Source of the DNA: Collinsella aerofaciens
Lineage (GTDB): Bacteria; Actinomycetota; Coriobacteriia; Coriobacteriales; Coriobacteriaceae
Assembly (NCBI RefSeq): GCF_028207065.1
Contig: NZ_JAQLFP010000008.1
Span: forward strand, 1 to 64,000
Length of the DNA: 64,000 bases
Direction of reading: 5' to 3'
Shown here: positions 9,225-50,354 of the stretch, in pieces
Layout: each line of letters opens with the position of its first letter
Numbering within the stretch: the first letter of the stretch is position 1
Notes under the pieces: generated by a model
What the model was told of the DNA's origin: nothing
Seen by the model: the letters and a program-made list of their open reading frames with translations, nothing else
The model's database searches: none
Translations under genes and position numbers: made by a program

Positions 9225-9588
9225 GGGGGCGACTGGTTTCGACACGATAGCTCTGAGAGAGGAAGCAAGCCGAGGTCTCCTCGCCTCGTTAAACAGGGGT
9301 ACCGTCAAATTGAATTGACAACAACTCTTCTTTTGAGCCTATGGCTCTCGCTGCCTAATTTATAGCGGCGCGTCAACCCGGTGATTTCCCCGACACCGGC
9401 GCGACGTCATGTTAGGGGAATGCTCCTGCGCACGTAATCGGTATGGCGCAGGCTAAGACCGAACCGGTTAGGACGCCGCGAACGTGTCGCTGCGCGCAAA
9501 GCGTCCGAGACTAAACCAGCGACTGAGCTTGGAGATGCCAATCAGGGGGCTTTCGTGGACCGGAGTTCGATTCTCCGCGCCTCCACCA
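9225..9588 (+). ncRNA. ssrA: Transfer-messenger RNA (tmRNA)
   Basis: About 364 nt. The 5' GGGGGCGACTGG pairs with the 3' CGCCTCC before ACCA to form the tRNA-like acceptor stem (one G-U), and the 3' part holds the T-arm GGAGTTCGATTCTCC. The tag reading frame (about 9317-9358) encodes DNNSSFEPMALAA and stops at TAA; the ALAA end is the classic protease tag. tmRNA rescues stalled ribosomes with SmpB. A possible -10 TAAGAT lies at 9121-9126. The 3' end is the prophage attachment site, and the core repeat restores the mature CCA end after integration. Confidence 0.97.
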
Positions 9589-9589
9589 A
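9581..9589 (+). other. attL core at the ssrA 3' end
   Basis: CTCCACCAA covers the last bases of tmRNA and recurs in the same orientation at 46382-46390. Host tmRNA lies on its left and phage DNA on its right. The identity is short, as expected for a serine integrase, and is supported by the reading-frame and terminator evidence at both ends. Confidence 0.8.
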
Positions 9590-9656
9590 CTGTTCAGTAG
9601 GCGAACACATACGCGTGCTCGTCGTTAGGCGGGCGTTCGTATTGCTCGTCAGATAG
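9590..9656 (+). other. Stranded 3' end of the virus-form integrase gene
   Basis: Joining the integrase frame at the attR core to the DNA right of attL continues the same frame for 21 codons after the shared Asn (CSVGEHIRVLVVRRAFVLLV, then R) to TAG at 9654-9656. A terminator follows at once. The stretch has no start of its own. It is best read as the C-terminal coding end of the integrase in the circular phage genome, displaced by integration. Confidence 0.72.
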
Positions 9657-9688
9657 AAAGAAGCCGCTCCATACGGGGCGGCTTCTTT
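9657..9688. terminator. Bidirectional terminator at the left prophage end
   Basis: AAAGAAGCCGC pairs with GCGGCTTCTTT, giving A/T-rich ends on both strands. On the plus strand it directly follows the virus-form integrase stop; on the minus strand it closes the lysis/late operon whose last gene ends at 9694. Confidence 0.85.
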
Positions 9689-9693
9689 GCGTT

Positions 9694-10005
9694 CTAGGCC
9701 TGCGGCATGATCTCCTGCTCGCCGTCCTCGTCCATGTACGGCATGAGGAACACGCCGCCCTGCTCGGTGGTAAGCAGCAGGTACTCGCGGTTGTGCTCGT
9801 CGCACACGATTTCCTGGCCGATGCCCTCGGGCAGGTCGTATATGGGGCCGTCCGTGCGGGCTTGCCTCACGGTCACGTCTTGCGCTCCCATGGCCTGCGA
9901 CGCGCAGCTGGCGGCGGCCAGGACGATGAACAGCAGGACGACCGCCGCGAGGATGGGGCCGCACCCGCCGTTGCGCTCCTCGTCTGCGGGGCTCGGGTAC
10001 GGCAT
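9694..10005 (-). CDS. Small phage membrane protein after the endolysin
   Basis: 103 residues. A hydrophobic segment (about 17-38, GPILAAVVLLFIVLAAASC) ending in a lipobox-like AASC is followed by a soluble domain with EYLLLTTEQGGVFLMPYMD and DEDGE. That tail loosely resembles small DUF6440-type domains (hydrophobic strand, GG, acidic turn), which is a weak match. ATG at 10005 follows GGTGGGATAGGCC. It is the last gene of the late operon, 3 bp downstream of the endolysin stop, so it may assist lysis (spanin-like) or alter the host envelope. Function is not established. Confidence 0.65.
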   Translation of the reverse strand: MPYPSPADEERNGGCGPILAAVVLLFIVLAAASCASQAMGAQDVTVRQARTDGPIYDLPEGIGQEIVCDEHNREYLLLTTEQGGVFLMPYMDEDGEQEIMPQA

Positions 10006-11557: not shown

Positions 11558-11593
11558 TCGTTTTCTCACCTCCTCGAATCGCTGCCGCGATTG

Positions 11594-11613
11594 TCCGCGA
11601 GGTGTCGCCGGGC
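11594..11613 (-). promoter_or_regulatory. Recurring phage motif, copy 1
   Basis: The minus strand carries GCCCGGCGACACCTCGCGGA between a terminator and the strong ribosome site of the lysis-cassette gene. Related copies are at 15880-15899, 27295-27314 and 33290-33309. Repetition and position suggest a regulatory element (promoter part or processing site). No standard -35/-10 pair fits well. Confidence 0.45.
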
Positions 11614-11643: not shown

Positions 11644-11889
11644 CTACTCCTGCGGCGCTTCCGGCTGGTCGGGCTCCATGGCTTCCAGCTCGTTGATGCG
11701 GTCGCGCCACGTCTGGCGCTGCGAGATGATCTCGGCCACCTCCTTGGCAGCTGCGGCGATGGCCGAGAGCAGGTCGGTGATGGACGATGCGGAGAAGATG
11801 CGCTCCACCGCCTTCATGACCTTGTAGTCGCTCTGCTCAAGCTGCTGTTTGTAGCCGTTGATCTCCCCGGCGATTTCCTGTTCTGTCAT
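11644..11889 (-). CDS. Small tail- or lysis-associated phage protein
   Basis: 81 residues, helical and charged. ATG at 11889 is preceded by GGAAGGAGCGACCC. The pattern GYKQQLEQSDYKVMKAVE plus RQTWRDRINELEAME near the C-terminus recurs in small proteins encoded beside tail-fibre genes of Gram-positive phages. A precise role is unknown. The start overlaps the 3' end of the reverse transcriptase gene by 53 bp in another frame, and a strong terminator follows. Confidence 0.7.
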   Translation of the reverse strand: MTEQEIAGEINGYKQQLEQSDYKVMKAVERIFSASSITDLLSAIAAAAKEVAEIISQRQTWRDRINELEAMEPDQPEAPQE

Positions 11890-13096
11890 GGGTCGCTCCT
11901 TCCGTTGCTAGGGTAGGGGCATGTTCCCATCCGTGTCGCCTCCAGGTTTGGATTGCATTGAGCAACCCCCCCGCGGGATTTCCGAACAGGCTGCGGTACA
12001 GCGCGTCCATGGCCCGCACGCTGCGGTGCGCGTCCAGCCGCTTCATGCCCCCGCGCCAGCTCTGGTAGCTCTGCTCCACCTGCTCGGGGGTCATGATGCC
12101 ATCGGCGACCATGCGGGCCATCTTCTTGAGCTTGCGGCGCTCCCGCGTTATGGAGTCTCGGCACGGCTTCACGACTATGCGGCCCGTCTCCGTGTAGAAG
12201 ATGCGCTTCTTCAGCCACGTGAACCCGCGCGTGAGCTTCACCACGCGCGTCTTGCGCGGGTTCAGCTCGATGCCCAGCTCGGCGCATTTGCCCTCTATCA
12301 GCAGCAGGCACACCTGCAGGTAGTCCTTGGACTCGTGTATCAGGTAGAAGTCGTCCATATATCGACCGTAGGCCTCGGGGCGCAGCATCTCGATTACGTA
12401 GTGGTCAATGCGGTTGGGGTGCGCGACGGCGCATATCTGGTTCGGCTCGCTGCCCAGCCCCAGGCCCACATCGCCCTGCGCGTCTATCAGGCGGTGCTCC
12501 AAGGCGACCACGCGCGGATCTAGCAGCGCGGAGGCCACCTGGTCTTTGACGGGTTGGTGCGCTATGCGCGCGAAGTAGTCGGAGAAGTCGCCGAGCAGTA
12601 TGTACCCCTCGCGGCCGTGCCGCCTCCAGTGGCCGGCCAGGTGGCGCTTGAGCAGCTTCAGGGCGTAGTCGGTGCCGCGCCCCTTTATGTTCGCGGAGTT
12701 GGCGGCTATGAGGGTGGGCACGATCGCGGGCACGAGCGCGTTTTGTGCCAGGGACTTCTGTACCACGCGCTCGGGGAAGTGTACGGCGCTGATATGGCGC
12801 AGCTTTCCGCGCTCCCACAGGTCGAACCGTATGAAGCCCCGGCATATGTCGCGCCCCTCCAAAAGGTCGCGGCGGGACAGGACGGCGTTGCGCAGGTAGC
12901 TTTTCATGTATCGCTGCGTGGATGCCTTCCACATCACGCCGCGCGCGGCCTGCTTCGATGCCTTGCACAGGCTGTTGAGGTCGGCCACGGTATCAAGCGT
13001 GCACGCCTTGACGCGCTCGGCCTTGGCCTGCGCGCGCTTCTCCTCGCGGCGCTTGCGGCGCGCCGCCCGCCTTTGCTCGGAGTTCACAGGAGGCAC
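11837..13096 (-). CDS. DGR reverse transcriptase
   Basis: 419 residues. A Lys/Arg-rich N-terminus precedes the polymerase fold: LLGDFSDYF (catalytic Asp near 170-173), GLGLGSEPNQ (215-220, where DGR enzymes usually carry a GxxxSQ motif) and YGRYMDDF (YMDD 246-249). A maturase or nuclease domain is absent, so it is not a group II intron. It copies the template-repeat RNA into adenine-mutagenised cDNA. GTG at 13096 is the longest start and has a poor ribosome site, so expression is probably low. It lies 208 bp downstream of the template repeat and overlaps the next gene by 53 bp. Confidence 0.92.
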   Translation of the reverse strand: MPPVNSEQRRAARRKRREEKRAQAKAERVKACTLDTVADLNSLCKASKQAARGVMWKASTQRYMKSYLRNAVLSRRDLLEGRDICRGFIRFDLWERGKLRHISAVHFPERVVQKSLAQNALVPAIVPTLIAANSANIKGRGTDYALKLLKRHLAGHWRRHGREGYILLGDFSDYFARIAHQPVKDQVASALLDPRVVALEHRLIDAQGDVGLGLGSEPNQICAVAHPNRIDHYVIEMLRPEAYGRYMDDFYLIHESKDYLQVCLLLIEGKCAELGIELNPRKTRVVKLTRGFTWLKKRIFYTETGRIVVKPCRDSITRERRKLKKMARMVADGIMTPEQVEQSYQSWRGGMKRLDAHRSVRAMDALYRSLFGNPAGGLLNAIQTWRRHGWEHAPTLATEGATHDRTGNRRGDQRLQTAA

Positions 13097-13304
13097 CCCG
13101 CGCGGCTTGCAATGTGGCTCTGGCAGCCGCTTGAGGTATGGCCATGAAACGCGGCGAAGCCACGGAGCGCCGCGCCATGCAAGCAGCGTCCGGCCACCCT
13201 CGCGGGGTGCGTATTTACGGGCGCATGCCCGACGGTCGCGCCTTCCTTCCTCTTCGCGCTCTGCTTTCGGCTCTGGGGCCTACTCGGTCTGGCAATAAGG
13301 GAAT
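13097..13304 (-). ncRNA. DGR spacer RNA between template repeat and RT gene
   Basis: These 208 bases on the minus strand have no convincing gene. In the Bordetella phage DGR the RNA 3' of the template repeat forms a structure bound by Avd-RT and primes cDNA synthesis. By position this segment is the equivalent. The primed base cannot be identified by eye. Confidence 0.55.
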
Positions 13305-13428
13305 CCGGGGCGGGGGCGAACCCAGACGTTCGTCGCCGAGTTGTAGTTGGCATTGCCGTTGTTGTTGACATAGCACACGTTGGACGCGGAGCCCGACGCA
13401 ACGGAACGCAGCCACCAATTGTACCGAT
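13305..13428 (-). repeat. DGR template repeat (TR)
   Basis: This 124-bp sequence matches the 3' end of the variable tail gene at 14043-14166. I count seven mismatches, all at adenines of the TR minus strand (A to G four times, A to C twice, A to T once, including one at the boundary). About 23 template adenines are present and none of the other roughly 101 bases changed. In the gene's frame the TR holds TAC and AAY codons at the variable sites, the standard diversifiable codons. It lies 23 bp after the avd stop. Confidence 0.95.
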
Positions 13429-13451
13429 AAACAAGGCGCGACCGCCGTCCA

Positions 13452-13922
13452 TTATAGCGAACGCAGGCGCTCTAGCTCGGCCTCGGCCTCGGCTATGCGC
13501 TCCTCGGTGGACTTCTTGCCCGTCACGCGCACGTTCTTGCGCGCGCCCTTCAGCAGCTTGATCTCTTCCTCGACCATGGCCGCCAGCTCCTCGAAGCGGT
13601 TGGCGTTCACGGGCAGGCCGATATCCATGAGGCACTGCATGTCCAGCATCAGCTGCTCGCAGTCAGCTATGGCCAGCGTTAGGTAGCGTTTCCTCTCCAG
13701 CGCGTTGAACGAGGTGTTGGGGTAGAAGCAGTCGGCGCGGTTGACGTTGTACACGATGCTGCGCGCCGTCTCCACCGTAGGCACCGCGTTCAGCAGACGA
13801 TAGGTCTTCGGAACCACGGAGGACGACGCCATCAGCTTGTTGACCTCCACGCGGATGGCGATTGCTTGAGTGAAAAACTTGTACTCGGAAACCTCGCGGT
13901 TGCGCTGGTAGACGCCGCTCAC
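13452..13922 (-). CDS. avd: DGR accessory variability determinant (Avd-like)
   Basis: 156 residues from GTG at 13922, with AGGAGG five bases upstream. The protein is all helical and basic (EYKFFTQAIAIRVEVNKL, RKRYLTLAIADCEQLML, ELAAMVEEEIKLLKGARK), like the four-helix-bundle Avd proteins that form a pentameric ring and bind reverse transcriptase and template RNA. The last 30 residues (TEERIAEAEAELERLRS) form an extra coiled coil, making it longer than the usual 120-130 residues. The frame is open upstream to 14312 but only across the variable repeat. Order VP-avd-TR-RT is classic for DGRs. Confidence 0.82.
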   Translation of the reverse strand: MSGVYQRNREVSEYKFFTQAIAIRVEVNKLMASSSVVPKTYRLLNAVPTVETARSIVYNVNRADCFYPNTSFNALERKRYLTLAIADCEQLMLDMQCLMDIGLPVNANRFEELAAMVEEEIKLLKGARKNVRVTGKKSTEERIAEAEAELERLRSL

Positions 13923-13947
13923 GTGCACCTCCTGGGGAAACTGGCGG

Positions 13948-13970
13948 AAAAAACGGCCCGCTTCGCGGGC
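13948..13970 (-). terminator. Terminator between the variable tail gene and avd
   Basis: On the minus strand GCCCGC-GAA-GCGGGC is followed by CGTTTTTT. It should keep most late transcripts from entering avd and RT, limiting DGR expression. Confidence 0.75.
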
Positions 13971-13973
13971 GAG

Positions 13974-13998
13974 AGGCGACCGCGCAAGGCGGTCGCCT
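13974..13998 (-). other. Strong hairpin upstream of the terminator
   Basis: Ten-base arms AGGCGACCGC and GCGGTCGCCT around a 5-nt loop lie directly before the terminator. It may add to termination or stabilise the 3' end of the variable-protein mRNA. Confidence 0.55.
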
Positions 13999-14018
13999 AA
14001 AAGCAGAGTATAGAGCAC

Positions 14019-14034
14019 TCGGCTGGCTAGCCGA
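14019..14034 (-). other. DGR target hairpin after the variable repeat
   Basis: TCGGCT and AGCCGA form a 6-bp stem with a 4-nt loop, 8 bp beyond the end of the variable repeat and spanning the stop codon of the variable gene. No such hairpin flanks the template repeat. A DNA hairpin at this position is required for efficient retrohoming in the Bordetella phage system. Confidence 0.65.
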
Positions 14035-14935
14035 CGAGGAAGCCGGGGCGGGGGCGAACCCAGACGTTCGTCGCCGAGTTGTAGTTGGCATTGCCGCTGC
14101 TGTTGACATAGCACACGCTGGACGCGGAGCCCGACGCAACGGAACGCAGCCACCAAGAGCACCGAGTTCCGTTGAGGCGGTGCGCCGTGTCGCGGAACAG
14201 GTCGAACTGGCAGTCGAAGCCGACGCTGTAGCCCTTGGTGCCCCACACTGGGCAGCCGTACACCTCCATCTCGGAGGGCGACCACACCTTGCCGATATCC
14301 TGCCAGCTCCACGAGTTGGAGTCGTTGAGCGCGCCACTGGCGCTGTAACGCTCCTCAAGCAGGACGCGCTGGGTCAGCAGGTACTTGGTCAGGCTCTCGG
14401 GCAGGCACGCCTCGAAAGCCGTCTCCCACGCCTTGAGGTTGCTGTTGGGGTAGGGGCATTTCTGGTCGGCGGTGCCCTGGTTCGTGTTGGTCGTGTTCCA
14501 CATCAGGAAGCTGTCGTTGGCAACGCCGGTCACGGTCTTGGCCACGGCGATGGGCGCGGAGGCCACGAACGCGATATGGTGTCCCTTGCTGTTGTCGCCG
14601 CAGTAAAGGTACGGGTCGATGTGGGCAAGCAGGAACCGCACAGATTGCTGTGTGGTGACGGCGGATGCGCTCACAAGCGGCACGTCCAGGTAGTCGCCCA
14701 CGCGCAGGCCTGCGAAGTTCGCGGCGGCGATGCGCTTATGCAGCGCGTCGTACACGCTGCCGCTGCCGATCTCTCCCGCCAGGATGGCGGCGATGTTCTG
14801 CCCGCCGTACTTGCCGATTTGGCCCTGGCGGTTGTACTCGGCGTTGTTGAGCGCCGTCTGCGCGTTGCTGCGCGCGGTATCGTCGATGACCTCGTAGCCG
14901 ATGCCGCCCACCGACAGGGTTTTCGCTTGTGCCAT
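14027..14935 (-). CDS. DGR variable protein, tail-tip receptor-binding protein
   Basis: 302 residues. The N-terminal 75 residues are tail-attachment-like; the C-terminal two thirds resemble the C-type-lectin-like DUF6273 fold common among gut-phage DGR targets (SFLMWNTTNTNQG, WSPSEMEVYG, WWLRSVASGSAS, VWVRPRPGF). The last 40 or so residues are the variable region. Relative to the template, Tyr became Cys and Asn became Ser at several positions while the scaffold (WWLRS, VWVRPRPGF) is untouched. It lies after the baseplate-type gene and is expected to bind the host surface. ATG at 14935 follows GAAAGGCAACGAA. Confidence 0.9.
   Translation of the reverse strand: MAQAKTLSVGGIGYEVIDDTARSNAQTALNNAEYNRQGQIGKYGGQNIAAILAGEIGSGSVYDALHKRIAAANFAGLRVGDYLDVPLVSASAVTTQQSVRFLLAHIDPYLYCGDNSKGHHIAFVASAPIAVAKTVTGVANDSFLMWNTTNTNQGTADQKCPYPNSNLKAWETAFEACLPESLTKYLLTQRVLLEERYSASGALNDSNSWSWQDIGKVWSPSEMEVYGCPVWGTKGYSVGFDCQFDLFRDTAHRLNGTRCSWWLRSVASGSASSVCYVNSSGNANYNSATNVWVRPRPGFLVG
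14043..14166 (-). repeat. DGR variable repeat (VR)
   Basis: The 3' coding end of the variable protein gene, aligned without gaps to the template at 13305-13428. The GC-rich GGTTCGCCCCCGCCCCGG at its 3' end is identical in both copies and is the likely initiation-of-mutagenic-homing site. Differences from the template fall at AAT/AAC/TAC codons only. Confidence 0.95.
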
Positions 14936-14947
14936 TTCGTTGCCTTT

Positions 14948-15850
14948 CTACTTGAGGTTGAGGGTTGTGCCGGACGCCGTGCAGGTGCTCCCGAACGTGA
15001 TGGTGCTGCCAGATGCACTGGCCTTGGAGGCGGGGCAGTACACGTTGCCGTCGTCGTAGATGAACGTGTCCGTGGCGTCGGCCAGCTTGCCGTACAGGTC
15101 GGCTATCTGCTGCTTCTGCTTGGCCATGTCCGAGCTGCCCGCACTGCCCTGCGCCACGCTGTTGGCTATCTGCAGGGCGATGTTTGCCGCCGCGTCGGCG
15201 TTCGAGGCCGCGCCGGTTGCCGCAGCCGTGGCGGCTTGCGAGGCCGTCTTCAGCTGCGACGCCTCGGTCACGCGGTCGCTTTCCGCCGTGGCTCGCTTCT
15301 TCTCGGCCTCTGCGCGCTTGGTTTCGGCGGTCTGGCGTGCCTTCTCGTTCGTGGCGCGCTGGTTTTCCGCGCTCGCGCGGGAGGCCTCGGCCTTCTGCAT
15401 CTGCGCGTTCAGCGCGCTCACGTCGGCTAGCTGCCCTTCGAGGTTCGCGATGATCGCCTCCACCGCATCGACGTACGGGCCGGATATCTCGCCCGACGCG
15501 CTCGCCGAGGGCAGCACGTTCACCAGGACGTTCTCGGTGGTGGCGTCTAGCCCTGCCGCGCTCCGCACGCGCACGTAGCACACCTTGAGCAGCCCGGCCA
15601 CGCCGAAGACGGCGGGGTCGACCGTCACGGTGGCCACGTTGTCGCTGATGCCAGTGAACTGCTGCTCCACGTAGGTGTGGTCGGGCTTCGCAGCCATGAG
15701 GTGCACTTTGCAGCCCGTCAGGGCCGCCTTCTTGTCGCCGTCGTAGATGGCGGCCTTCAGGACCTCGGCGCTGTCGCCCTGGTGCACGGTGATGACGGGC
15801 GGCGCTATGTTGGTCTTCTTGAGGTTGAGCGTAAGCTCGTGCGTTGCCAT
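14948..15850 (-). CDS. BppU-like baseplate upper protein
   Basis: 300 residues. The first 110 form a beta domain typical of BppU N-termini (HELTLNLKKTNIAPPVITVHQ, then GDSAEVLKAAIYDGDKKAAL). A long Ala/Glu/Lys coiled coil (about 130-245) follows, then a small beta tail ending STCTASGTTLNLK. Such proteins form a trimeric arm holding receptor-binding proteins on the baseplate. ATG at 15850 follows GGAAAGGAATAAGGC. Directly downstream is the DGR variable protein, consistent with this protein carrying it. Confidence 0.8.
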   Translation of the reverse strand: MATHELTLNLKKTNIAPPVITVHQGDSAEVLKAAIYDGDKKAALTGCKVHLMAAKPDHTYVEQQFTGISDNVATVTVDPAVFGVAGLLKVCYVRVRSAAGLDATTENVLVNVLPSASASGEISGPYVDAVEAIIANLEGQLADVSALNAQMQKAEASRASAENQRATNEKARQTAETKRAEAEKKRATAESDRVTEASQLKTASQAATAAATGAASNADAAANIALQIANSVAQGSAGSSDMAKQKQQIADLYGKLADATDTFIYDDGNVYCPASKASASGSTITFGSTCTASGTTLNLK

Positions 15851-15853
15851 GCC

Positions 15854-16174
15854 TTATTCCTTTCCTTCGGCCGCAAGTGTCCGCGATATGTCGCCGGGCT
15901 GCGCTCTGTGGACCCCGCATATCTCCTCGTCGGTGAGCGCCGAGAAGTCCACGGCGTTGGCCTCGCCGCCTTCCGCGTCCATGACGGCCACGGGGCTGGA
16001 CACGAGCGTGAAGCCGCCCTTGCCGTCGAACTCGAACACGTCTTCCGATTCCACGATGGCCCGCGCCGTGGCCGGGTCGCTGATGCACTCGAACACCGGA
16101 AGCGCCTCGGGCGGCTTCGGCGCGCCGTCGAGCGCCTGCGGCGCTTCGGGCTGCTGCACAAGGTGGTAGAACAT
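15854..16174 (-). CDS. Small tail-associated protein
   Basis: 106 residues, acidic, starting MFYHLVQQPEAPQAL. ATG at 16174 follows GAGAGAGGAAACGGA. Position between the tail endopeptidase gene and the BppU-like gene suggests a baseplate or fibre accessory role, similar to small XkdW-type proteins. Its last codons contain copy 2 of the recurring phage motif (15880-15899), so here the motif is both coding and upstream of the next gene. Function unknown. Confidence 0.65.
   Translation of the reverse strand: MFYHLVQQPEAPQALDGAPKPPEALPVFECISDPATARAIVESEDVFEFDGKGGFTLVSSPVAVMDAEGGEANAVDFSALTDEEICGVHRAQPGDISRTLAAEGKE
15880..15899 (-). promoter_or_regulatory. Recurring phage motif, copy 2
   Basis: Minus-strand GCCCGGCGACATATCGCGGA lies inside the 3' end of the preceding gene, about 30 bp upstream of the BppU-like start. 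This copy lacks an adjacent terminator, unlike the other three. Confidence 0.4.
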
Positions 16175-16195: not shown

Positions 16196-18748
16196 CTAGT
16201 TTCCCGTGATGCTGCTCATGCCGGTGATGATTCCGTTCACCACGTTGATGGTGCCCCACGTCCAGTTGTTGCCGTTGTTGGTGATGCACCCGATGAACTG
16301 CGTGGAGCCCGTGTACCCGTAGGTGCCGCCGCTGCTCGGACTGGTTCCTATGGCGAACTTCGGGGCGAGTATCCTGGCGGTGTCCGACGACCCAATGTCT
16401 GCGCGGCTGCTATCCAGGTACACGTAGTTGTTGGAGTTCTCCTGCAGCTTCACGTACGCCGAGCCGCCCGCGTTGCTGTTGCCGCTCCTCATGTACAGCT
16501 GCTCGTCGGGATGGCTCATGTAGCCCGCGCAGTAGGGGGTCGTCAGCCACGTCTGGCGGTAGTAGCGGTTGACTGCCAGGAAGCCGTAGCCGCAGGTGGA
16601 TATGCCCACGCCGTCGGTCGAGCTCGCCGTGGGGCTGTCCTTCGCGTGGACGGCCTCGATGGTGCAGTACTCGGTCGAGCCGTTCACGAACGACGCTCCC
16701 GGGTGGTTGTTCGTCGTCGTGCCGGTGGTGATGTAGTTGGTTGACGACGTGCCGACCATGTTGCAGCGGAACATGGAGGTGCTGCCCACCAGCACGGTGC
16801 CCGCGATGATGGAGCCGTTCTTGTCGTATATCTGGAAGCCGTTGGTGGCGTTGATATAGACCCTGTTGCCGTTGCTGTCGGTCATGAAGATAGAGCCGTC
16901 GCGCAGGTAGAAGGCCCCGCTGTCGAGGTCCCAGTACGAGTTCCCGCCTTTGATGCGGCCCGTGGTCAGCTCGTCGGCGGTCACGCCGTCGCCGGTTATG
17001 GCCGTGCGCCACTTCCACGCGCCGCTGGAGTACTTGGAGTTGGCCACGCCGATGATTCCGCCGCCTATCTTGACGCACTTGGTGGCGCTCTCGGGCTTTT
17101 TGTCGTACACGAGGATGCCTTGGCCGGGCTCCTCGTACACCCAGCCGCCCGTGGTGTTCACCTCGCTGTTGAGCATGTCAACGATCTTCTTGCGGATATC
17201 CGTCGGCAGCTGGTCGAGCTGTTTCTGCAGCCCATCCACCTCGCCCTCGGCGCTCGTCAGCCGTTCGTCCAGCTTGTCCGTGACGCCTTCCAGGTACTCC
17301 TTGTTGGCCTCGTCTATCTTCTTGAGCACGCTCTCGCTTTGCTCTATCGACGTGTCGGTGTACAGGCGCAGCACCTCGTCCAGGGTCAGGTTGCCGTCGT
17401 CGGAATACTTCTTCAGCGCCTCCTCCAGCGTGGCGTCCCCGTTGTCGGCGTACTCCTTGAGGGCCTTGTCCAGCTCGTCCCTTATCTGGTCGGTGTAGTC
17501 CTGGGCGGCGCCGCCGACCTCCTTGGCATACGCCTTCTGGCGCTCCTCGGCGGCCGCCAGGCTCTCGCCCCATTTGCCGGTCGATGCCTTGTTCGAGGCG
17601 TTCACGGCCTCGGTCACGGTCGCCCGGATGGTCGAGGCGGTGGACTTGGCGGCCGACTTCTGCACGGCCATCAGCTCGGCGACCGTCTGGTAGTTGCCGA
17701 ACGTGTAGGTGACCTCGCCGGGGCGCAGCTGGTCCTCCACCACCTTGGTGATGCGCGTGCGCACGCGCAGCGGCGGGTCGTACACCTTGTCCACCACGGT
17801 CACCAGGTCGCCCTCGTCCGCGCCCTCGAAGCCCTCGCCGGCGCGCGCAAGCGCCACGGCGTCCGCAGTGTAGGACACGGTGGGCACGCACGACTTCGCC
17901 AGCTGCGCCTCGGTGAGCTTCTTCAGCTCGTCGGCGTCCTCGCAGTCGGAGAACTCCACGTCGCCGAACACGTGCGCCTTGCCGCCCTTGCCGTCGGGCC
18001 GTCCCCAGCGCGCCAGCGCGTCGGCCGACCCCACCCAGTTCTGCCCGCCGTTCACGTCGCCGAAGGTCAGCTTGCGATCGTAGCCGCCCGTCAGGTTGCC
18101 GTCCTCGTCGGCGGTCTGCAGGGACTTGCCGTAGCCGTACAGGGCGGTACACACGTTGCCCTCGTCCACGCTGCGCTTGACGCTCACGAGGTCCTTGGCG
18201 TAGGTGAAACGCTTGCCGTTGTCCTCGCCGACCTGCTTGGCCATGCACACGCGGCGTGCGGTCACCTTGGTGCCGCTCACCTGGATTTCGAACGACAGCT
18301 CGCCGCCCCAAGTGTCTGCCACGTCGTGGATGGCCGCCCATGCGTTGGTGTGGTAGAAGTTCGTGCCGGCCTGCCCGAGGTCGGCCACGGTTCCGACCTG
18401 CCAGCGCGAGGAGGACAGTGCCGAGGCCAGCGCGGCGTAGGCGCTCACGTCGTAGGGGCGCTTGTCCTCCAGGTAGTCGCCCAGGAGCTCGATTTGCGCC
18501 GAGGTCGGGCAGTAGTACGTGTAGAGGATGCCCGCGCTTGCGCGCTCCTCTTCCACGCCGTCCACGATGTTCTCGTGCCAGCGGCCCTTGAGGTCGCGCC
18601 ACACCAGGCGGTCGCCCTTGTCCAGGCGCGCCAGCGTTGTGATGCTCAGGGCGTTCTCGCCGTTGACCTCGCGCGTGTCCTCGCACTCGAACAGCGTCTT
18701 GATGGGTCCCTTGTACGCCTCCCAGCGGTCGCATGCCCACAGAATCAT
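16196..18748 (-). CDS. Phage tail endopeptidase (Tal-like) protein
   Basis: 850 residues. The first 360 resemble the gp27-like hub domain of prophage tail endopeptidases (Prophage_tail family). A long charged coiled coil follows (about 400-560, DYTDQIRDELDKALKEYADN, DEVLRLYTDTSIEQSESVLK), then a beta-rich fibre (GGIIGVANSKYSSGAWKW, GSIFMTDSNGNRVYINATNG). It forms the tail tip below Dit and may carry peptidoglycan-active or receptor parts. ATG at 18748 overlaps the Dit stop (TGATG); an upstream GTG at 18772 is less likely. Confidence 0.85.
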   Translation of the reverse strand: MILWACDRWEAYKGPIKTLFECEDTREVNGENALSITTLARLDKGDRLVWRDLKGRWHENIVDGVEEERASAGILYTYYCPTSAQIELLGDYLEDKRPYDVSAYAALASALSSSRWQVGTVADLGQAGTNFYHTNAWAAIHDVADTWGGELSFEIQVSGTKVTARRVCMAKQVGEDNGKRFTYAKDLVSVKRSVDEGNVCTALYGYGKSLQTADEDGNLTGGYDRKLTFGDVNGGQNWVGSADALARWGRPDGKGGKAHVFGDVEFSDCEDADELKKLTEAQLAKSCVPTVSYTADAVALARAGEGFEGADEGDLVTVVDKVYDPPLRVRTRITKVVEDQLRPGEVTYTFGNYQTVAELMAVQKSAAKSTASTIRATVTEAVNASNKASTGKWGESLAAAEERQKAYAKEVGGAAQDYTDQIRDELDKALKEYADNGDATLEEALKKYSDDGNLTLDEVLRLYTDTSIEQSESVLKKIDEANKEYLEGVTDKLDERLTSAEGEVDGLQKQLDQLPTDIRKKIVDMLNSEVNTTGGWVYEEPGQGILVYDKKPESATKCVKIGGGIIGVANSKYSSGAWKWRTAITGDGVTADELTTGRIKGGNSYWDLDSGAFYLRDGSIFMTDSNGNRVYINATNGFQIYDKNGSIIAGTVLVGSTSMFRCNMVGTSSTNYITTGTTTNNHPGASFVNGSTEYCTIEAVHAKDSPTASSTDGVGISTCGYGFLAVNRYYRQTWLTTPYCAGYMSHPDEQLYMRSGNSNAGGSAYVKLQENSNNYVYLDSSRADIGSSDTARILAPKFAIGTSPSSGGTYGYTGSTQFIGCITNNGNNWTWGTINVVNGIITGMSSITGN

Positions 18749-19461
18749 CAGCCCACGTACCTTTCCGTCCACTGTACCGTCGCGGTGCCGCTGGACAGCT
18801 TGAGGCTGTTGGACCCCGGCTCCAGCGGGAAGAAGTCACTCTCGAAGGTCACGGGCGCGGGGCTGCCGTCCACCGTGGCCTGCGGGGCGGCCATGTCGAT
18901 GACCACCGCGCTCGATGCCGTCACCGCCTTGTCGATCTGCACGAACTCGCCCGTGCCCATGTTCGTCAGCCGCAGCGCCGACGTGCTGCCGCCGGGCCTG
19001 ACGGTCACGGTGGGGTAGGTGCGGAAAGTCCCGCCCACCTGCACGCCCGAGGTGCCCGACACGGTTGCGCGCCCCTCGGCCCCGTAGGCCACGGGGTCGT
19101 ATGCCGTGAACGTCAGCGTGGCCTCGCCGGTGTGCCACAACGTGTCGAGCGCGCCCGGCGAGGTCAGCACGGCCATGTAGCGCAGGCCCAGGTGCCTCTC
19201 GTCGTCCAGCCACAGCTCGGCCTCCTTGAGGCACAGCAGGCGCGAGGCCATGAGGCGGCGAAGGGCCGCCATATCGTCGGCGGGGCGTGCCCTCCAGGCC
19301 GCCGCCACGTCTATCGTCAGGGGTTTCAGCTCTGCGCGCATGAAGCGCGAGCCGGGCTGCCCGGGCACGTCGCGCGTGGCGATTTCGTACTCGGGCAGCA
19401 GCGAGCGGGTCACGAGCCGGGTGTCGAACCACGGCGCGAAGTCGAAGCCGTTGTATATCAT
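18748..19461 (-). CDS. Distal tail protein (Dit, Sipho_tail)
   Basis: 237 residues with the Sipho_tail/Dit pattern: MIYNGFDFAPWFDTRLVTRS at the start, a beta-rich N-domain, YMAVLTSPGALDTL, LTFTAYDPVAYG, and a galectin-like C-domain with LRLTNMGTGEFVQIDKAV and FFPLEPGSNSLKL. Dit hexamers link the tail tube to the tip complex. ATG at 19461 overlaps the tape-measure stop (ATGA) and follows CAGGAGTGCTTCGC. The next gene also overlaps, giving tight translational coupling. Confidence 0.9.
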   Translation of the reverse strand: MIYNGFDFAPWFDTRLVTRSLLPEYEIATRDVPGQPGSRFMRAELKPLTIDVAAAWRARPADDMAALRRLMASRLLCLKEAELWLDDERHLGLRYMAVLTSPGALDTLWHTGEATLTFTAYDPVAYGAEGRATVSGTSGVQVGGTFRTYPTVTVRPGGSTSALRLTNMGTGEFVQIDKAVTASSAVVIDMAAPQATVDGSPAPVTFESDFFPLEPGSNSLKLSSGTATVQWTERYVG

Positions 19462-44927: not shown

Positions 44928-46442
44928 ATGGGCGGACGTGCGGCGATATACGCCCGCTTCTCTAGCCACAACCAGCGCGGCGAGTCCATCGAGATACAGG
45001 TGGAGAAGTCCCGCGCCTACTGCGCGGAGAACGACCTGCGCGTGGTGGCCACGTACTGCGACTTCGCGCAGACGGGCACCAACACCGACCGCGCCGAGTT
45101 CCAGCGCATGATGGCCGACGCCAAGCGCGGGCTGTTCGACTTCGTGGTCATATATAAAGTCACCCGAATCATGCGCAACCGCGACGAGATGGCCCTGGCG
45201 CGCATCATGCTGCGCCGCTGCCATGTCGAGATACTGTACGCGGGCGAGGACATTTCGGACGGCTCGGCGGGCGTGCTGCAGCTGGGCATGCTTGAGGTCT
45301 TGGCGGAGTACGAGAGCGCGCTCGACGGCGAGCGCATACGCGACGGCATACAGAAGAACGCCGAGCGGTGCCTGGCCAACGGCTGCGTGCGCTACGGCTG
45401 GGACATAGCGGACGGGCGCTACGTGGTGAACGAGGAGGAGGCAGCCGCCATCCGCCTGGGCGTGCGCATGGTTCTTTCCGGCAAGTCGGTGGCCGACGTG
45501 GTGCGCGCCTGGGAGCCCTACCGCACCAAGAAGGGCGGCAAGTGGCGCTTCCAGACGGTGCGCCGCATACTGATGCGGCGGGAGAACGGCGGGGAGTACC
45601 GCTACGCGGGCGTGGTCGTGCCCGGCGGCATGCCCGCCATCGTTTCCATGGAGGACGAGGAGAGGGTGATACGGATGCTGGAGGACTCGCACAGGCCCCG
45701 CGCCAAGACCGACGCGTGGGACTTCCCACTCACGGGCAAGCTCTACGACGGGCGAGACGGCGGGCTGATGACCGGCACCAGCGGCACGGGCAAGTCGGGC
45801 AGGCCCTATCACTACTACCGCTGCCGCAGCTGCGGGCGCACCGTGCGCCGCGACGCAATCGAGAAGCGCGTGGCCGACGCCGTGCGCGAGGCCCTGGGCA
45901 GCGCCGACAGCCGCGAGCGCATCGCGAGCATGCTGGTCGAGGCGGAGGAGCAGCGCGACGGCGAGAGGCCCTTGAGCGAGACGATAAAGGGCGAGCTGGC
46001 CAAGATCGAGACAGCCTTCTCGAACATATGGGCGGCCATCGAGTCGGGCATGGCCCCGCCGGGCGGCAAGGAGCGCATAGACGCGCTGAAGCAGCGGCAG
46101 GCGCTCCTCAAGGACGAGCTGCGCACGGCCGAGGCCCTTGAGGCCGCCCGCCTTGACTACGACCGCGCGCTGTTCTGGCTTGAGGGCATGGCCGCCGCCG
46201 AGGTGGACGACGCGCAGCTCCTGCGCACGTTCGTGGCGCGCGTGGTGCTGGGCGGCCCCGACGATGACGACGGCCTGCGCGTGGCGTTCACGTTTGACGA
46301 TTCTGCCGGCTTGGGCGATAATCCGTCGCTGCCTGGCGCTATAGGTCCAGGTGGCGAGGTGTTCGACCGAATGAACGCCAGCTCCACCAATAGTTACAAG
46401 CAGGTAGAGAAGTGTCTCTACCTGCTTTTTTATTACATATAG
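44928..46442 (+). CDS. int: Large serine recombinase (phage integrase)
   Basis: 504 residues in the lysogen. Resolvase catalytic domain at 1-150 (IYARFSSHNQ, Ser12; ITRIMRNRDEMAL-type helix E), recombinase domain about 155-270, a reduced zinc ribbon, and a coiled coil (about 345-405). The usual first CxxC is YDGRDG, leaving only YRCRSCG. It catalyses prophage integration and, with a directionality factor, excision. The attR core lies in codons 485-488, so residues after Asn488 (SYKQVEKCLYLLFYYI) are encoded by host DNA; the virus form would instead end CSVGEHIRVLVVRRAFVLLV plus R. Confidence 0.92.
   Translation: MGGRAAIYARFSSHNQRGESIEIQVEKSRAYCAENDLRVVATYCDFAQTGTNTDRAEFQRMMADAKRGLFDFVVIYKVTRIMRNRDEMALARIMLRRCHVEILYAGEDISDGSAGVLQLGMLEVLAEYESALDGERIRDGIQKNAERCLANGCVRYGWDIADGRYVVNEEEAAAIRLGVRMVLSGKSVADVVRAWEPYRTKKGGKWRFQTVRRILMRRENGGEYRYAGVVVPGGMPAIVSMEDEERVIRMLEDSHRPRAKTDAWDFPLTGKLYDGRDGGLMTGTSGTGKSGRPYHYYRCRSCGRTVRRDAIEKRVADAVREALGSADSRERIASMLVEAEEQRDGERPLSETIKGELAKIETAFSNIWAAIESGMAPPGGKERIDALKQRQALLKDELRTAEALEAARLDYDRALFWLEGMAAAEVDDAQLLRTFVARVVLGGPDDDDGLRVAFTFDDSAGLGDNPSLPGAIGPGGEVFDRMNASSTNSYKQVEKCLYLLFYYI
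46382..46390 (+). other. attR core
   Basis: CTCCACCAA in the same orientation as at the tmRNA 3' end. Phage DNA (integrase gene) is on the left; the sequence on the right is the former downstream flank of ssrA, beginning with a strong terminator. Confidence 0.8.
46399..46430 (+). terminator. Original ssrA terminator, now ending the integrase transcript
   Basis: AGCAGGTAGAGA and TCTCTACCTGCT around AGTG, followed by TTTTT. It starts 9 bp after the attR core, exactly where a tmRNA terminator would be before integration. It overlaps the lysogen-form integrase 3' end. Confidence 0.85.
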
Positions 46443-48945: not shown

Positions 48946-50283
48946 ATGCCCCAGAACATCTTCGGTACCGACGGCGTCCGTGGCGTCGCCAATGCCGACC
49001 TCTCGTGTGACCTCGCGTTTCGCCTGGGCCGCGCGGCGACCAAGTTCCTTGGTCCGGATATCTGTGTCGGCCGCGACACGCGTCTTTCGGGCACCATGCT
49101 CGAGAGCGCTCTGACCGCCGGCATCATGGCCGAGGGCGGCCGTCCGCACTGCTGCGGCGTCATCCCCACGCCTGCCGTGGCGCTGCTCACCGTCCAGAAT
49201 GAGCTCGACGGCGGCATCGTCATCTCTGCTTCGCATAATCCGCCGGAGTTCAACGGCATCAAGTTCTTTAGCCGCAAGGGCATGAAGCTTCCCGATGCGG
49301 TCGAGGAAGAGATCAGCGCCTGGGTCATGTCCGAGGAAGCCATGGCTGCCGACACGCTGCCGACCGGTGCCGGCGTGGGCCACATCATCAAGATGAAGGA
49401 CGCTCGCAAGGCATACGTCGACCACGCCATCGATACGCTTGATGGCCTGAGGCTCGATGGCCTGGTCGTTGCCGTCGACTGCGGTCACGGTGCTTCCTGC
49501 CAGACTACGCCCGCCGCGCTGCAGCGCCTGGGTGCCACGGTCCATGCCATCAACACCGATTACTGCGGCACCGACATCAATGTCGAGTGCGGCTCCACTC
49601 ACCTTGAGCCCCTGCGCGAGCTCGTGCTGCGCACCCATGCTGACATCGGCCTGGCCCACGACGGCGACGCCGATCGCGTGCTCTTTGTGGACAGCGAGGG
49701 CAATGAGATCGACGGTGACTACATCCTGGCTATCTGCGGTTCTGACCTCGCCGCCCGCGGCAAGCTCGCCAGCTCCGAGATCGTCTCGACCGTCATGTGC
49801 AACCTGGGCTTCTCCATCGCTATGAAGGAGCAGGGCTTCGAGATGGTTCAGACCGCTGTGGGCGACCGTTATGTTCTTGAGCGTATGCTCGCGGACGGTG
49901 CCGTCATCGGCGGCGAACAGTCCGGCCACATCATCTTCCTGGAGCACAACACCACCGGTGACGGCCTGGTGACGGCTCTGCAGCTGCTGGCCGTGCTCAA
50001 GCGCACCGGTCGTACCCTCACCGATCTTGCCGGCATCATGAAGAAGTATCCGCAGGTACTCGTCAACGTGCATTCCGACAACAAGGCTGGTCTGGATGAT
50101 TGCCAGCCCATCTGGGATGCCGTCGCTGCTGCCGAGAAGGAGCTTGACGGCCGCGGCCGCATTCTGGTGCGTCCGAGCGGTACCGAGCCGCTGGTCCGCG
50201 TTATGGCCGAGGCCGAGACGCACGAGCTGACCCAGCGCGTTGTCGACGACATCGTCGAGGTTGTCAAGCGCGAACTTCCCTAA
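48946..50283 (+). CDS. glmM: Phosphoglucosamine mutase
   Basis: 445 residues, standard length. FGTDGVRGVAN at the start, active-site phosphoserine loop ISASHNPPEFNGIKFF, magnesium loop DGDADRVLFVD, sugar loop GGEQSGHIIF and phosphate site RPSGTEPLVRVM. It interconverts glucosamine-6- and glucosamine-1-phosphate for peptidoglycan synthesis. ATG at 48946 follows GAAGGAGCGATCCT. Confidence 0.96.
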   Translation: MPQNIFGTDGVRGVANADLSCDLAFRLGRAATKFLGPDICVGRDTRLSGTMLESALTAGIMAEGGRPHCCGVIPTPAVALLTVQNELDGGIVISASHNPPEFNGIKFFSRKGMKLPDAVEEEISAWVMSEEAMAADTLPTGAGVGHIIKMKDARKAYVDHAIDTLDGLRLDGLVVAVDCGHGASCQTTPAALQRLGATVHAINTDYCGTDINVECGSTHLEPLRELVLRTHADIGLAHDGDADRVLFVDSEGNEIDGDYILAICGSDLAARGKLASSEIVSTVMCNLGFSIAMKEQGFEMVQTAVGDRYVLERMLADGAVIGGEQSGHIIFLEHNTTGDGLVTALQLLAVLKRTGRTLTDLAGIMKKYPQVLVNVHSDNKAGLDDCQPIWDAVAAAEKELDGRGRILVRPSGTEPLVRVMAEAETHELTQRVVDDIVEVVKRELP

Positions 50284-50354
50284 TGGTCAAAAACGAGTGC
50301 CAAGTGGTAAACTGTTAAGGTTATTTTGGTTGATCGGTATGTCCGAGGGGGAGC

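Follow-up and report, generated by a model that had tools for sequence, protein, structure and literature searches.

RT-2 as a likely spacer RNA of a diversity-generating retroelement in a Collinsella prophage

How diversity-generating retroelements (DGRs) confine mutagenesis to their template has been worked out mainly in Bordetella phage BPP-1, and it is with this system that we compare a DGR carried by a prophage in a 64,000-nt stretch of Collinsella DNA (contig NZ_JAQLFP010000008.1; hereafter the window, to which all coordinates refer). The window element has the complete set of DGR parts, namely a variable protein (VP) gene, a homologue of the accessory variability determinant (Avd), a template repeat (TR), a spacer and a reverse transcriptase (RT) with a YMDD motif, all on the minus strand and in the gene order of BPP-1. 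In BPP-1, the folded spacer recruits RT-Avd, one of its adenines primes cDNA synthesis within IMH* (from IMH, initiation of mutagenic homing), and a motif at the end of the avd mRNA stops copying (excerpt of PMC12875486); a hairpin behind the variable repeat (VR) is also required, and it is its structure that matters, not the sequence of its stem (excerpt of PMC3240598). Prophage DGRs have been described in Eggerthella lenta, another member of the Coriobacteriia, where one of them changed its VR in a chemostat (excerpt of PMC8778435).

The window element shares with BPP-1 the mtd-avd-TR-brt order, an RT related by sequence, an Avd related by fold, the GC tract and post-VR hairpin known from that phage (excerpt of PMC3240598), adenine-restricted changes and a possible pairing of the TR 3' end with the spacer (over 7 bp in BPP-1). 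It differs in that its VP carries a DUF6273 domain and is not an annotated Mtd, in that its spacer belongs to RF03077 (RT-2) and not to RF03022 and is 203 nt long versus 144 nt, and in that the 24-nt stretch between avd and TR holds one arm of a closing helix (a simple scan finds at best 8 bp in BPP-1 versus 15 here). Like the E. lenta elements, it combines an avd-like gene, a TR, an RT and a variable gene in a gut coriobacterial prophage, albeit in a different genus and with no spacer RNA mentioned for the E. lenta elements (excerpt of PMC8778435). Roseburia phage Shimadzu (LR596903) has an RT 53.5% identical to that of the window, an annotated Avd 26% identical, an annotated RT and tail fibre, an RT-2 spacer (144.9 bits) and 17 of 18 TR/VR mismatches at A, but it has P2-like baseplate genes, a longer VP (431 aa) and a poorly paired closing helix. 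Faecalibacterium phage Pioen and phages nd4 and nd12 share DUF6273 target proteins (excerpts of PMC11792537 and PMC10743442), and Pioen also has an RT-2 spacer (175.1 bits), whereas the RTs of these phages are only about 30-34% identical to that of the window and the nd4 and nd12 loci have no Rfam match. Gut phages and prophages of this bacterial class are already known to carry DGRs (excerpt of PMC8778435), and the window DGR is a well-preserved addition that brings a clean example to Collinsella, a common gut genus; a literature search on 'diversity-generating retroelement' and 'Collinsella' gave, among the matches listed, no title on Collinsella DGRs.

The more useful result concerns the RNA. 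We consider it likely that RT-2 serves as spacer in a second class of DGR template RNAs, whose working form exceeds the family model and reaches through TR into the end of avd: of the 25 bases (13232-13256) that the RF03077 consensus leaves unpaired, 18 fall in the two helices tested below and would pair with the ends of the template, one helix closing the loop and probably marking where copying stops, the other forming the RNA duplex at which copying starts, while a near-constant A/C difference beside that duplex would never be copied and would mark the template. If so, an RNA family without an assigned role becomes tied to a mechanism, and the base-pairing predictions gained with it bear on how DGRs confine mutagenesis to the template.

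Adenine-restricted differences between template and variable repeats

The first-pass annotation of this DNA had counted seven TR/VR mismatches, all at template adenines, and in its 124-nt frame (13305-13428 against 14043-14166, 23 A) all seven do lie at TR adenines (chance 3.3e-6). Because 13428 is the outermost base of the repeat, where homology stops, only six of them are dispersed mutations (13422, 13420, 13419, 13380, 13362 and 13359; P = 1.8e-5 over 13305-13427), and the frame left out position 13304, one base beyond it. The ungapped repeat spans 128 nt and again contains 7 mismatches, all at TR A (P 2.6e-6). In frame, the changes turn Tyr into Cys once and Asn into Ser four times (once as AAT to TCT), as the annotation had said of Tyr and Asn codons, and leave Gly as Gly at 13304. 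Since random mutagenesis would not yield the same base every time, the A/C difference at 13304 is, judged from the loci compared, a fixed mark that tells TR from VR and not a product of mutagenesis; it is of the same kind as the differences between IMH and IMH* of BPP-1, where five near the 3' end of the repeat, four of them not at A, likewise distinguish the two copies. L025 and L047 form the only lineage seen with C and not A in the TR at this position, and L025 is the exception in the count of 23 loci. A scan of the whole window with a 129-nt TR (both strands, at most 25 non-A mismatches) returned only the TR and one VR, with no second target, and exact patterns from the TR and VR end matched 0 viral contigs.

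The same bias is seen across the 24 loci examined, which comprise the window, 17 relatives from genomes and viral contigs, phage Shimadzu, four further phage records and L047. A VR is present in the stretch for 23 of these (L047 being the one without), and they amount to 22 distinct loci as L046 contains L004 unchanged. Mismatches lie at a TR adenine in 305 of 320 cases in the 23 loci (292/307 in the distinct ones), adenines making up 609 of 2956 TR positions, and at none of the 320 does the VR have A. With the fixed base left out, the 23 loci give p 3e-204 in Fisher's test, a value that is overstated because the loci are related. Over the last 112 nt, the VR equals its own TR at every non-A position in 10 of 11 loci (L015 has one mismatch), while TRs from separate lineages can differ from one another at as many as 37 of these 112 positions; this match within each locus despite diverged templates indicates that the VR has been overwritten from its own TR, as homing predicts.

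Related prophages that share a TR and carry different VRs, a comparison that the first-pass annotation had suggested, were found among the genomes. The window and L014 have an identical 128-nt TR, and their VRs show 14 differences over 128 positions, 13 at TR A, while the upstream VP differs at 30/770; L016 and L002 likewise have an identical TR, VRs that differ at 12/128, all at TR A, and upstream VP sequences that differ at 12/431. Comparison of these sequences therefore supports the view, already put forward from the window alone, that the DGR has been active in this lineage. RT relatives at E 1e-30 or better occur in 9 of 43 genomes of the genus. In one Collinsella contig (G001 C6), L014 and L009 (42102-43560, plus strand, and 49019-50335, minus strand) are two convergent RT-2 DGRs about 5.5 kb apart, and the second RT is 59% identical to that of the window.

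The proteins and the region behind the VR point the same way. The catalytic motif of the RT, GRYMDDF, is intact; the protein matches PF00078 (E 2.6e-10) and phrog_1423 (E 2.5e-62), and its best match in the PDB is the BPP-1 DGR RT (8ub7_A, E 4.4e-12). Translation may start at an internal GTG at 13087 (VNSEQ..., compare the MNS starts in relatives). In a structure comparison, the predicted fold of Avd matches bAvd. Among 15 rows given for the hairpin test, the 13 with GCTTCC were folded, and in 12 of these a stop-codon hairpin and a CTTGC-type hairpin are predicted with differing stem letters, the stem of the second (H2) changing among relatives with its pairing kept; L016, in which the letters of H1 are identical to those of the window, folds otherwise at minimum energy.

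Altogether, the mismatches, adenine-only here and adenine-biased in the relatives, the match of the RT to 8ub7_A, the fold of Avd, the BPP-1 gene order and the post-VR hairpins support the identification as a phage DGR that is functional or was so recently, a reading to which we assign a probability of about 95%.

RT-2 and its pairing with both ends of the template

At E up to 1, RT-2 was the only Rfam family matched in window positions 12900-14200, and RF03022 (Phage_DGR) gave no match there. Because RF03022, which the BPP-1 spacer matches at 104.7 bits, already represents the spacer of that phage, RT-2 appears from these sequence matches to be a second Rfam family of DGR spacers, held under a neutral name. 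Weinberg 2017 reportedly described the RT-n motifs. No statement that RT-2 is a DGR spacer was found in the literature searched, which did not include the founding RT-2 paper or the 2025 paper on the BPP-1 ribonucleoprotein.

RT-2 was detected in 11 of 13 relatives (all but L007 and L008), in 11 of 12 loci of another set (all but L006, whose DGR core is deleted), in 7 of 396 genomes of Actinomycetota and in 11 of 197 genomes of the same order, these survey sets being overlapping ones. Each of the 23 RT-2 loci whose extracted stretch covers both repeats has adenine-biased ones, and the TR lies directly upstream of RT-2; L047, L012 and L013 are left out of this count, the latter two having TR-like DNA upstream in stretches that begin near the TR. 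L007 (G019 C2) is a DGR of the genus Collinsella with a divergent RT (32% identity), an adenine-only repeat stretch and no RT-2 match. We also considered extending the assignment to all Rfam families with RT names and rejected it, as, among 13 additional phage loci carrying a related RT, only 4 matched an Rfam family and this was always RT-2.

RNAalifold on 14 loci predicts that the 5' flank of the TR pairs with the spacer in an 11-bp helix and that the TR 3' end pairs with the spacer as well. On 19 sequences, 94.2% of the cells of both helices are paired and double changes occur in 14 of 18 pairs, so that the helices covary, and not one of 500 shuffles attains any of the five measures. When the helices are slid as a control, pairing stays at or below 59.6%, double changes occur in no more than 7 pairs and the score does not exceed 0.136 (versus 0.363 for the helices themselves), a comparison that leans in favour of the helices because 14 of the 19 sequences are the loci in which they were found; that overlap counts against them. 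The five added rows are the fairer test. The closing helix forms 11 of 11 pairs in L025, L028 and L030 and 10 in L032 but only 5 in the Roseburia locus L023, which likewise speaks against it, and the helix at the TR 3' end forms 7, 5, 7, 6 and 5 of 7 pairs in L025, L028, L030, L032 and L023, respectively.

By analogy with BPP-1, the 3' helix would place the start of copying, while copying may end at the closing helix. If cDNA synthesis began 5' of 13304, that would account for the failure of this base to pass to the VR. The candidate priming adenosine is put forward only by analogy with BPP-1, the positions there being A56 and G117.

In the mechanism that we propose, a transcript comprising the end of avd, the TR and the RT-2 spacer would fold so as to bring each end of the template into pairing with the spacer, the 11-bp helix with the TR 5' flank closing the template and the short helix with the TR 3' end setting the start point. 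RT and Avd would then copy the TR, misreading adenines, and the GC tract and the stop-codon hairpin would guide the cDNA to the end of the VP gene, where it would replace the VR. In a VP encoded behind the tail-tip genes, the scaffold would thereby stay fixed while mainly Asn and Tyr codons are varied.

The variable protein and the state of the element

VP residues 154-295 match Pfam DUF6273 (E 4.8e-9), and the last codons of this domain are the VR. Other DUF6273 proteins have been modelled as C-type-lectin-like (excerpt of PMC10743442), and this match together with those published models suggests a C-type-lectin fold for the VP. From its position after the tail-tip and BppU_N genes, the VP is probably the receptor-binding protein.

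Several observations weigh against our reading of the element and of its parts. The AlphaFold2 model of the VP (13 sequences) has a mean predicted local distance difference test score of 50.1, about 25-46 per block over residues 191-300, too poor for a fold. Family profile searches gave no trustworthy sequence-family match for Avd; with its model, Foldseek found no match with an E of at most 0.001, its bAvd hits starting at E 0.22, and the VIA list ranks 2gsc (hypothetical) and 2rld (S23 family) above bAvd, with an unrelated helical bundle reaching 13.1 in the VIA fold comparison. Fifteen of the 320 mismatches lie at TR bases other than A: L038 has 9 of them, L015 and L033 have 2 apiece, and L014 and L023 have a single one. 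Moreover, the window VR has 7 mismatches in total; L016 has 6, and each of the remaining 21 loci has between 9 and 26. Present activity is an inference.

The low number of changes raises the possibility that the DGR was active in the past and is now silent in the prophage, its parts persisting and its VR frozen. The six dispersed changes in the window VR would fit a silent element, and decay does occur among the relatives: L006 (G011 C4) is a decayed DGR in which VP and VR remain, while a deletion fusing the beginning of avd to roughly the final third of the RT has taken out what lay between, namely the remainder of avd, the TR, the spacer and the front part of the RT. In the window, however, the RT, Avd, TR, spacer RNA and hairpins are intact by sequence, and close relatives with the same TR carry different VRs; we therefore regard silencing as unlikely, if the most serious of the alternatives.

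Somewhat less probable still is a role of the VP in the tail or virion other than receptor binding, for instance as a decoration or mucus-binding protein, with variation that serves another end. Residues 254-294 do have a weak match to the Hoc-like decoration family phrog_10993 (E 0.002), and a DGR target with immunoglobulin (Ig) repeats resembling Hoc has been described in Faecalibacterium prophages (excerpt of PMC11792537), but family profile searches matched no Ig domain in the VP, and a place after the Prophage_tail/Tal-like and BppU_N genes and before the holin-like and endolysin genes is the usual one for a receptor-binding protein. An RT from another retroelement (group II intron, retron or defence RT) beside an ordinary diverging duplication is very improbable, because the generic matches (group II maturase, 43 bits against a cut-off of 300; PADLOC RT and defence-associated DRT models, 55.5 bits at best) include NCBIfam scores far under their cut-offs and because the mismatches lie at A of one copy only, the best PDB match is a DGR RT, and Avd and the spacer RNA are in place.

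Layout of the element and prophage setting

The features of the functional or recently functional DGR that we favour are listed in Table 1.

Table 1. Positions of the DGR features in the 64,000-nt window
Feature	Position	Strand	Remarks
VP gene	14027-14935	minus	302 aa; C-terminal DUF6273 domain; VR at 3' end; probable receptor-binding protein
VR	14038-14165	minus	128 nt, 95% identical to TR; 7 mismatches including the fixed one, all at TR adenines
GC-rich tract, IMH-like, at VR 3' end	14043-14056	minus	followed by fixed C at 14042; from sequence
Hairpin H1	14019-14034	minus	6-bp stem over VP stop codon, BPP-1-like post-VR position; stems vary among relatives yet pair
Hairpin H2	13975-13997	minus	9-bp stem, loop CTTGC
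Hairpin H3 and T run	13956-13970	minus	terminator-like end of VP transcript; from sequence and fold
Avd homologue	13452-13922	minus	156 aa
Closing helix, 5' arm	13433-13443	minus	GGTCGCGCCTT; covaries with 13234-13244
TR	13300-13427	minus	128 nt, 23 A
Fixed TR/VR discriminator	13304	minus	A in TR, C in VR (14042); 22/23 loci, 21/22 distinct
TR 3' end, IMH*-like strand	13297-13303	minus	TTCCCTT; pairs with 13247-13254
Spacer RNA, Rfam RF03077 RT-2	13073-13297	minus	135.5 bits against a gathering score of 40 (E 3.4e-33); covers the whole model, 1-222 of 222
Spacer strand pairing with TR 3' end	13247-13254	minus	AAGAGGAA, one A unpaired
Closing helix, 3' arm	13234-13244	minus	AAGGCGCGACC; 13244 candidate priming adenosine
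RT	11837-13096	minus	DGR reverse transcriptase, at most 419 aa, YMDD

Downstream of the VP, three stem-loops are followed by the Avd-like gene, a 24-nt gap, the TR, the spacer and the RT, and beyond the DGR lie holin-like and endolysin genes; upstream of the VP are a BppU_N gene (14948-15850) and a Prophage_tail/Tal-like gene (16196-18772). The annotated claim of a complete DGR in canonical order in the tail region is thus borne out, its parts standing between tail and lysis genes, and its assignment to a gut actinomycetote is right so far as relatives tell, the nearest in genome contigs being five, from four strains, all Collinsella.

The prophage also has tape measure, major tail protein, scaffold, head and terminase genes and measures about 37 kb, its ends being an estimate. 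It starts after a transfer-messenger RNA (tmRNA) gene (9225-9588) at its left edge, and a large serine recombinase gene (44928-46442) lies near its right edge. No attachment repeat of at least 15 nt from positions 9401-9900, around the tmRNA gene, recurs elsewhere in the window, which is unsurprising because the integrase is of the serine type. Finally, a 30-nt repeat, 87% identical between its two copies (11584-11613 and 15870-15899), lies near two small cassette genes.

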